From the NCBI GenBank assembly GCA_018058095.1, contig JAGPCO010000004.1, positions 62,001 to 126,000 on the forward strand: 64,000 nucleotides of DNA, written 5' to 3'. A program made the translations under genes and the position numbers. How positions within the stretch are numbered: the first letter of the stretch is position 1; every line of letters starts with the position of its first letter. Shown here one piece after another: positions 44,554 to 62,697 of this stretch. The notes beneath the pieces were generated by a model that worked only from the letters and a program-made list of their open reading frames with translations, was not told the origin of the DNA and made no database searches. This stretch comes from Kofleriaceae bacterium (GTDB lineage: Bacteria; Myxococcota_A; Polyangia; Haliangiales; Haliangiaceae).

Positions 44554-45354
44554 ATGTCTTCGTCTGCCGCCGGCCCCCGCAGCGACCGTCGCCGCCGCGC
44601 CGTGCCAGCCGGGGCCCAGGTCAGCTTCGACGACCTCGTGCGCGGTATCACCACGCCACCGCGACGTCCGCGCCGGCGCCGGCGCGGACGGCCGCCCATG
44701 CAGCACCGCAACTCGGTCAAGCGCTGCGCCAGGCCTCGCTTCGCGAGGACCACCGTTCACCACGTCAGCCTGCGCACCGTCGACACCCTGCCCAGGTTGC
44801 GCACCCACGCCGGCCGCGAGGTGCTCGAACGCGCCCTCACCGGCGCGCGCGACCACACCCGCGTCACCGGCTTCCGCGTCCTGCACTACGCCCTCGAGGG
44901 CAACCACCTCCACCTCATCGTCGAGGCCGACGATGACACCGCGCTGTCGCGCGGCATGAAGGGGCTGGCGATCCGCCTCGCCCGCGGCTGGAACAAGGCC
45001 TTCGGCCGCCGTGGCCGGGTCTTCGCCGACCGCTACCACGCCCGCCCGGTCACCTCACCGACGCAGATGCGCAACACGCTGCGCTACGTGCTGTTCAACC
45101 ACGTGAGTCACTCCATCCGGGATTGGCAGGCGAATCGCGGCCAGCTACGCCAGCGCCTGCGCTTCTTCGAGCCCGACCGCTGGTCGTCCGGGCGATGGTT
45201 CGACAACGGACGTTCTCCGCCTCTGGGCGGAGCGCGGCCGGTGTCTGGGCCCACGACCTGGCTCGCGCGTGAGGGCTGGCTCCGCGCTGGCGGGCCGATC
45301 GACCCGGCCGAGCTACTGGACCGCCGCACTCCACGTCCTCCACGCGCGCGATGA
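44554..45354 (+). CDS. Y1 (IS200/REP-associated) tyrosine transposase
   Basis: A 266-residue protein. The first ~65 residues are basic and probably bind DNA (PRRPRRRRRGRPP). The Y1 domain (about 66-190) shows the HUH motif EGNHLHLIV (H118, H120), GRRGRVFADRYHARPV and the catalytic-type tyrosine Y178 in MRNTLRYVLFNHV. This spacing fits RAYT enzymes such as E. coli YafM, which cut single-stranded REP hairpins at a foot tetranucleotide. A C-terminal extension of ~75 residues is of unknown role. TATATA (44540-44545) ten bases before the ATG is the likely -10. Confidence 0.88.
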   Translation: MSSSAAGPRSDRRRRAVPAGAQVSFDDLVRGITTPPRRPRRRRRGRPPMQHRNSVKRCARPRFARTTVHHVSLRTVDTLPRLRTHAGREVLERALTGARDHTRVTGFRVLHYALEGNHLHLIVEADDDTALSRGMKGLAIRLARGWNKAFGRRGRVFADRYHARPVTSPTQMRNTLRYVLFNHVSHSIRDWQANRGQLRQRLRFFEPDRWSSGRWFDNGRSPPLGGARPVSGPTTWLAREGWLRAGGPIDPAELLDRRTPRPPRAR

Positions 45355-61433: not shown

Positions 61434-61480
61434 CCGCTGAGACAGACCGCTGAGACAAGGTCCCCCGCTGAGACAAGGTC
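61434..61480. repeat. three direct repeats of CCGCTGAGACAAGGTC
   Basis: One partial unit (61434-61446) and two full units of CCGCTGAGACAAGGTC (61447-61462, 61465-61480) follow one another. They lie ~200 bases before the second Y1 transposase gene and 100 bases after the acidic lipoprotein start. The remaining DNA to 61677 is markedly G-rich on the plus strand, with a small GTCCGG-TGGG-CCGGAC hairpin, and holds no other gene I can see. Confidence 0.75.
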
Positions 61481-61677
61481 GTGACGACGTGATCAGGGGA
61501 TGGGTCGCGGAGTGGGGCGTTATGTAAACCGGCGAGATGGCTCGGGCCGCGTGTCCGGGAGTGGGCGAGGGGCGGACGGGGCGGACGAAAGAGTCCGGTG
61601 GGCCGGACAGGCGGGTTGGCAAGTGGCGGGAATGTGGCGAAAGGTTGGTTGGCGCGGGATGTGCTGCGGGTGGGGGT

Positions 61678-62697
61678 ATGGTGACGGAACGGCAGAAGGA
61701 GACGGGCAAGGGTGGGGCGGTGCGGCGGATCCGGTATTTGCCGCTGGAGACGACGATGCCGGAGGGTGGGCCGGGGGGGCTGGTGGAGGTGACGATCAGG
61801 ACGATCGCGGCGATGCTGCTGTGCCGGCCGTCGGAGCGGCTCAATCAGCGGATCTTGGGGGTGATGGGGCGGGCGCTGGCGCTGTACCCGGTGGCGCTGC
61901 ACGCCTTTGTCTTCATGTCGAACCACTGGCACGCGCTGCTGACGACGCCGGATGGCGAGACGCTGGCGCGGTTCGTTCAGCACGTGAACAGCAATGTCGC
62001 CAAGGCGATCAAGGAGGAGACGGGCTGGACGGGCAGGGTCTGGCAGCGGCGAGCGGCGAACATCGCGGTGCTCGACGACGACGCGGCGGAAGACCGGCTG
62101 CGCTACGTGCTGGCGCACGGGGTGAAGGAGGGGTTGGTCGAGCGGTCGGAGGACTGGCCGGGCGTGAACTGCGTGAGCGCGCTGCTCGGGCGCGAGCGGC
62201 TGGTGGGGCGGTGGGCGACGAAGAAGGGGCGCAAGCGGGTGGTGGAGACCTACTTCATCGACCTGGCGCCGCTGCCGGGCTGGCGCGTGCTGCGCGAGGA
62301 GCAGCGGCTGCACCGGGTCCGGCGCATGCTGGCCGGCATCCAGCGCGACGCGGCGGCGGCGCGGGGTGAGGCGCCGCCGCTCGGCCGGGCCGCGGTGCTG
62401 GCGCAGGATCCGCTCGACCGGCCGACGCGCAGCAAACACGGCGCGGCGCCGCCGTGTCACACGACGGAGCGCCACCGGCGCGACGCGTTCAAGGCCGGCC
62501 GCGAGCACCTGTGCGCGGCGTACGCGGCGGCGCGCGAGCGGCGATGGCGGCGCGAGCACGAGGTGCCCGGCTTCCCGGCTGGCTGCTTCCCCAGCCCGCC
62601 CCGCTTCGTCGCGCCGATCGACCCGGCGGTGGTCGCCGCCCGCCGCGCCCGCGTGCTGGCGGCGCACCAGCGGACGCGGTGGCAACCCATGGCCTGA
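61678..62697 (+). CDS. second Y1 (REP-associated) tyrosine transposase-like protein
   Basis: A 339-residue protein. The Y1 core has the HUH motif MSNHWHALL (H83, H85), helical RFVQHVNSNVAKAIK, GRVWQRR and the putative catalytic Y143 in DRLRYVLAHGVKEGLVERSEDWPGVN, close to the RAYT motif YI..NPV.AGLV. A C-terminal ~170-residue extension is Arg/Ala-rich and carries RFVAPIDPAVVAARRARV. The first half of the gene is strongly G-skewed on this strand, unlike neighbours. No terminal inverted repeats were found around it, so it may be a domesticated or fixed gene. Confidence 0.8.
   Translation: MVTERQKETGKGGAVRRIRYLPLETTMPEGGPGGLVEVTIRTIAAMLLCRPSERLNQRILGVMGRALALYPVALHAFVFMSNHWHALLTTPDGETLARFVQHVNSNVAKAIKEETGWTGRVWQRRAANIAVLDDDAAEDRLRYVLAHGVKEGLVERSEDWPGVNCVSALLGRERLVGRWATKKGRKRVVETYFIDLAPLPGWRVLREEQRLHRVRRMLAGIQRDAAAARGEAPPLGRAAVLAQDPLDRPTRSKHGAAPPCHTTERHRRDAFKAGREHLCAAYAAARERRWRREHEVPGFPAGCFPSPPRFVAPIDPAVVAARRARVLAAHQRTRWQPMA

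Follow-up and report, generated by a model that had tools for sequence, protein, structure and literature searches.

The direct repeats in front of a tyrosine transposase gene of a Kofleriaceae bacterium are partial tandem copies, each consisting of 8-16 nt of flank and hairpin foot followed by the left end of the transposase unit up to a variable point. The gene lies in the analysed window, a stretch of 64,000 nucleotides (C14:62001-126000 of genome G000, a 7.57 Mb draft in 227 contigs, which are designated below by C numbers). The reading that we tentatively place first takes two things together: the window gene belongs to a mobile RAYT-type unit that is present in ten or more copies, and its transposase may nick the DNA 5' of the left-end hairpin, after which the 3' end would be extended and resealed to the 5' end held by the enzyme. 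The features of the locus are as follows.

61434-61446, forward strand: first partial copy, CCGCTGAGACA and then GA, cut within the left hairpin arm (its anchor in the joint table was placed by hand)
61447-61462, forward strand: second copy, ending directly after GGTC at the hairpin loop (from the repeat comparison and the joint table)
61465-61494, forward strand: complete left-end copy, flank prefix plus hairpin GACAAGGTCGTGACGACGTGATC, the hairpin being at 61472-61494
61465-61647, forward strand: leader common to the dispersed leader-only copies, with the right end ...GAATGTGGCGAAAGGTTG; it holds a GTCCGG...CCGGAC hairpin
61537-62697, forward strand: open reading frame with the Y1 transposase gene, likely start at 61678
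61678-62697, forward strand: Y1/HUH transposase of the TnpA-REP (RAYT) kind, 339 aa, with catalytic HWH (H83, H85) and Y143

The transposase unit and its copies in the genome

The window gene is intact and encodes an HUH/Y1 transposase of the TnpA-REP (RAYT) kind. Among 30 homologs, H83 and Y143 never vary and H85 is conserved in at least 90%, so the HUH motif and the single catalytic tyrosine are both present. The match to PF01797 reaches 23.1 bits at a cut-off of 23, while the NCBIfam model NF047646 (REP_Tyr_transpos) gives 63.7 bits, which is below its curated cut-off of 80. The best solved relative by sequence is TnpA-REP 4er8 (E 0.0023). The predicted fold (pLDDT 84.9) aligns with the same structure with Z 13.7 and an rmsd of 2.8 over 149 residues, whereas the next entry has Z 8.7, and the IS608 and ISDra2 entries lie at Z 7.6-8.7; the fold is thus that of TnpA-REP. 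The motif residues, the PF01797 match and the fold match to 4er8 confirm the RAYT-like Y1 identity assigned to the gene in the sequence-only reading. A PHROGs search gave a single weak match to a family of unknown function, and an Rfam search gave no match. Upstream of the gene are a short gene that matches no Pfam family and a pirin-family gene, and downstream is a gene in which two CxxCH haem motifs can be seen by eye.

The unit consists of the left-end hairpin, a G-rich leader of about 190 nt with a second hairpin, GTCCGG...CCGGAC, and then the TnpA-REP-like gene. Alignment of leader starts indicated that the left end, which opens the leader, resembles the palindrome TGATCAcGTCGTGACGACgTGATCA. 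As typed, this consensus gives a stem of 11 bp closed by a TGA loop (-11.6 kcal/mol, z -4.0). The fold of the 41-nt left end in the window is weaker (-7.9, z -1.8), and 9 of 200 shuffles are equally good. The window hairpin (C14:123472-123494) differs from the pattern GATCANGTCGTGACGACNTGATC by two mismatches. A degenerate hairpin search at up to three mismatches, which more diverged copies would escape, returned 69 rows over both strands, which count as 44 distinct places, and none in the control. A cognate hairpin is therefore present on the 5' side of the gene; the GTAG tag at the hairpin foot is absent from the window sequence by eye. The second hairpin is also seen by eye in the leaders of many same-family homologs. 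The idea that it is a dispersed repeat was rejected: the strict GTCCGG palindrome occurs at one place each in four of eight relatives.

Part of the left end, the 11-mer GAGACAAGGTC, occurs 20 times in the genome, on eight contigs, and its reversed-pattern control does not occur at all; the repeat is therefore not due to chance. Each occurrence is either the start of a leader continuing GTGACGACGTGATCAGGGG... or a partial copy of the leader start. On four of the contigs it leads into the transposase gene (C14, C113, C190 and C204), and on the other four the leader has no gene (C84, C110, C184 and C185). The four or five bases 5' of the 11-mer are local: CCGCT in C14, CTCG in C190, CACC in C113, TCTCT in C204 and CAGA in C185. 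In most leader-only copies, a sharp end is seen at ...GGCGAAAGGTTG or at most about ten bases beyond; two of them, at C184 and one at C210, stop earlier. By eye, the leader-only copy of L201 (C36), on the minus strand, follows a frame that reads like the start of Hsp70, as if inserted.

The G-rich plus strand described from the sequence alone is evident here: GC skew is 0.50-0.52 in the 200-base tiles of 61500-61799, and only two of the 555 230-base tiles of the window, both at this locus, exceed 0.4. All six own-genome leaders have a skew of 0.46-0.53. G skew as a trait of the family was rejected, since the 43 leaders of relatives average 0.01 and none exceeds 0.3.

A RAYT gene is typically single-copy and vertically kept, and the window gene had been proposed to be domesticated and chromosomally fixed. 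Both comparisons that bear on this refute it. Protein matches occur at no fewer than 11 places in this genome, so that a fixed single copy is excluded by an outcome that the sequence-only reading had itself named as refuting; ten of them carry the 3' part (15 of 73 candidates scored), three being complete and seven incomplete at contig ends. The matches are 94-100% identical, with one at 89%. The orthologous downstream gene is present in all 15 of the 15 congeners, and in none of these does tblastn detect the transposase within the approximately 1.5 kb upstream of it; since the window's upstream neighbours are not beside the downstream gene there either, this is absence at the site rather than a clean empty site. 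In total, 40 PF01797 matches, copies of the present gene included, were obtained in the genome at E up to 1, and the genome carries many further Y1 genes, some of them in frames of about 270 aa, e.g., at 44815-45090 of the window.

Outside this genome, the leader DNA is represented only by matches of 25-49 bases in four of 143 other genomes, in each of which five candidates were scored; at that search sensitivity, the repeat sequence is private to this genome. A scan for two GAGACAAGGTC within 30 bases gave nine stretches in other organisms, and the three that were inspected (L130, L134 and L135) proved to be other kinds of repeats.

As for the ends of the unit, the sequence-only reading had noted a lack of terminal inverted repeats, and indeed no convincing inverted repeat flanks the window copy, either among the 25 longest of 45 inverted pairs or in the right-side test. 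The best right-side hairpin candidates have 6 of 21 (C103) and 7 of 21 (C135) mismatches, and the best of 100 shuffles is as good. The one place with a 3'-end hairpin better than shuffles is C84, and there another array comes next.

Joints of the arrays and a possible mechanism

The three 16-bp units first described in front of the gene are two exact CCGCTGAGACAAGGTC units (61447-61462 and 61465-61480); the supposed third is CCGCTGAGACA alone (61434-61444), followed by GA and the next unit. The 16-mer is composed of host flank, which contributes five local bases, and the left hairpin arm. Recognition-type repeats belonging to the element are thus present, as had been supposed, and they are part of the hairpin; the 16-mer as such does not constitute the recognition unit, the shared portion being the left arm of the longer hairpin. 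Within the window, the 16-mer has three hits at up to three mismatches versus 0.87 expected, and three were reached in 8 of 100 shuffles; this count is unremarkable, so it is the genome-wide result that counts. Tandem Repeats Finder did not report the 16-bp units.

In this genome, 14 arrays with 34 joints were analysed by comparing each partial copy with the others, and 26 joints from 13 loci were resolved. Measured from the GGTC anchor, their left edges fall 8-16 nt to the 5' side (sd 1.7), despite differing prefixes and unrelated flanks, whereas the right edges fall 0-80 nt to the 3' side (sd 20.9). The two distributions differ in spread by the Levene test (p 4e-4), in which joints were taken as independent and 8 of the 26 come from C135. 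Seven of the 26 right edges fall at +4/5, the start of the hairpin loop, and four at +17/18, the 3' foot of the hairpin. The mean overlap at the joints is 0.42 nt versus 0.80 in simulated blunt joints; there is thus no excess of microhomology among joints resolved by an overlap between -3 and 5, a filter that favours blunt joints. Eight of the 34 joints were dropped: four have unexplained filler (overlap -5 to -22), and four have a match through the whole unit. By locus, C135 accounts for two of these, C184 for three, C169 for one and C210 for two, the last being duplicates of whole units. The search for copies relied on an AGGTC-type anchor, and units starting to the right of it would be missed.

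The number of copies per array ranges from 1 (the leader-only C36 and C147) to 11 (C135), and the prefix changes inside single arrays at C113 and C135. The longest array, in L086 (C135, 2290-2620), has 11 anchors, the AAAAGGTC variant and several prefix changes; it starts just after a tRNA-Arg gene (2209-2283).

The fixed left edge, the stall-like right edge and the lack of excess microhomology lead us to favour nicking, extension and resealing by the transposase. The enzyme would bind the single-stranded hairpin, cleave at a roughly fixed distance 5' of it and keep the 5' phosphate on its tyrosine. Synthesis from the freed 3'OH of the flank would run across the left end and come to a stop, often inside the hairpin, and the extended 3' end would then attack the 5' end held by the enzyme. 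Each cycle would add one tandem unit that begins at the cut site and ends where synthesis stalled. Partly similar reactions have been described in vitro: according to passages of PMC8266576, TnpA-REP enzymes cut on the 5' or the 3' side of REP hairpins and link a foreign 3'OH to the 5' end produced by the cut. The prefix changes within the C113 and C135 arrays stand against this mechanism, as its simple form does not explain them. In addition, the RAYTs studied in PMC8266576 cut at CT or CA, whereas here no left-edge dinucleotide is common by eye among the joints inspected.

The same arrays could have arisen by ordinary replication slippage or unequal exchange at the hairpin, without any transposase. 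The right edges do cluster at the hairpin loop and foot, where polymerases may stall, and the arrays of relatives described below are without clear polarity. On the other hand, microhomology is not in excess, arrays are enriched beside this kind of transposase, and the left edge is narrow over 13 loci with differing prefixes, which leaves no common outside sequence to guide slippage. We therefore regard slippage as rather unlikely, if still the strongest competitor of the transposase reading. Serial insertion, in which excised single-stranded left-end fragments, each with its prefix, are inserted one after another beside an existing copy by RAYT cut-and-paste, appears improbable: by itself, it gives no variable right edges, although it agrees with the cleavage and strand transfer known for TnpA-REP (in the account of PMC8266576), with the prefix switches within the C113 and C135 arrays, and with the identical whole units at C210.

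An artefact of repeat assembly is hardly credible. The genome is a draft in 227 contigs and many gene copies are at contig ends; however, the arrays differ by locus, several are deep within contigs (C14, C135, C185 and C190), and upstream arrays also appear in other genomes.

If the transposase reading is true, the arrays are a record within the genome of the cutting position and of the point where synthesis stops. As scars of the enzyme, the joints would give the cut position in the cell and would indicate that synthesis can proceed from a cleaved 3' end before it is resealed. This would point to a copying step for REP-type elements, whose spread is called poorly understood in PMC8266576.

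Relation to known systems

The RAYT/REP kind is itself known; what is new here, within the open-access literature searched, is the left-anchored truncated arrays, of which no description was found there. The same literature yielded no paper that mentions a REP-associated tyrosine transposase together with Myxococc- names.

With the RAYT/TnpA-REP and REP system (REPtron), the unit shares the HUH/Y1 fold, the catalytic residues, a hairpin of cognate type beside the gene and leader-only copies elsewhere. It differs in having at least ten copies of the gene, 44 hairpin places and no GTAG tag, in scoring below the NCBIfam cut-off, and in a C-terminal extension (339 aa versus 165 in 4er8). REPs are usually dispersed and number more than 100 per genome, as stated in the abstract of PMC2817692. 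TIRYT/TIRtron elements likewise have a tyrosine transposase of the RAYT kind with flanking repeats that are not GTAG REPs, in the description available from PMC3733652, whereas the window copy is without convincing (long) terminal inverted repeats. IS200/IS605 elements (IS608, ISDra2) share the Y1 fold and a subterminal hairpin; however, the fold match to TnpA-REP is clearly better, and here the left end is clear while the right-side candidates are no better than shuffles.

The closest parallel to the arrays is found in tandem clusters of REPs and REPINs, where reiteration also includes flanking DNA (passages of PMC3116915 and PMC3733652). The latter describes tandemly repeated REP clusters in which the repeats take in flanking DNA of variable length, and the former, a 2011 paper on tandem REPIN clusters, infers a second mechanism for cluster formation. 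The present arrays differ from these in that the units are truncated, their left edge being nearly constant and their right edge variable, and lie at the transposase's own left end.

Upstream arrays in relatives

Homologs at E 1e-20 or better were found in 28 of the 143 other genomes, including 1 of 15 congeners, and a class-wide search of 317 genomes, this one included, gave 21 at 1e-25. The fetched loci contained 50 homolog places, of which 43 were kept as non-duplicate and having at least 400 nt upstream; they are not fully independent, several genes coming from the same genome. A 10-mer in at least three upstream copies was found at 16 of the 43 homologs versus 4 of 71 distal tiles (p 5e-5) and 5 of 101 window tiles, and one in at least four copies at 9 of 43 versus 0 of 71 and 0 of 101. 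The 16 array-bearing homologs belong to 13 genomes and five families; the remaining 27 of 43 have no array of three or more. Among the arrays that were read, unit sequences differ between genomes.

Copy multiplicity replaced a weaker statistic, coverage by repeated 11-mers, which is weak because coding DNA here is repetitive. By that measure, the mark of 40 was reached or exceeded by 24 of 43 upstream regions versus 20 of 71 distal tiles (p 0.005), by 18 of 41 downstream regions (p 0.10), and by 4 of 18 other Y1 genes in this genome for which sufficient upstream DNA was available.

The polarity of the arrays was not established in the relatives. In a symmetric pivot test of 22 arrays, the ends were more variable in 11 and the starts in 10; four own-genome arrays were included, two of which follow the left-fixed rule (C84 and C184), one goes against it (C113), and one is about equal (C135). 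The joint test gave 5 versus 3 of 9 or 6 versus 1 of 8. A fixed start common to the relatives' arrays was rejected as an artefact of a biased choice of pivot, since it disappeared in the symmetric test. Thus, the polarity claim concerns one genome, while the general claim is based on the enrichment of upstream arrays. The latter, namely that the writing of tandem "stutter" arrays by an HUH transposase at its left end is a general RAYT side reaction or early copying step, is possible, and we hold it with less confidence than the reading for the present enzyme. The array pattern would be a cheap signature for finding active members.

The recurrence of upstream arrays in five families, together with a last copy that in C14, C190 and C113 alike lies 439 nt ahead of the HWH motif, could also be expected of functional binding sites for autoregulation or recruitment, with multiple copies kept by selection. 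This explanation is very unlikely: the units that were read differ between genomes, those of this genome include local flank, the copy number varies from 1 to 11 within one genome, and arrays of at least three copies are lacking at the 27 homologs mentioned above.

Several individual loci of relatives can be noted. By eye, L147, L185 and L144 have a left-anchored look, being cut after a common GTGCC, and L160 has inverted arrays on both sides. The family f7 homologs of L144, L147, L184, L185 and L187 have a common leader box, GTGCCAGA, followed shortly by CTTCTTGAG or a variant of it, and the approximately ten nt before the box differ per locus by eye. L176 (G019) contains two tandem transposase genes with long direct arrays between and after them.
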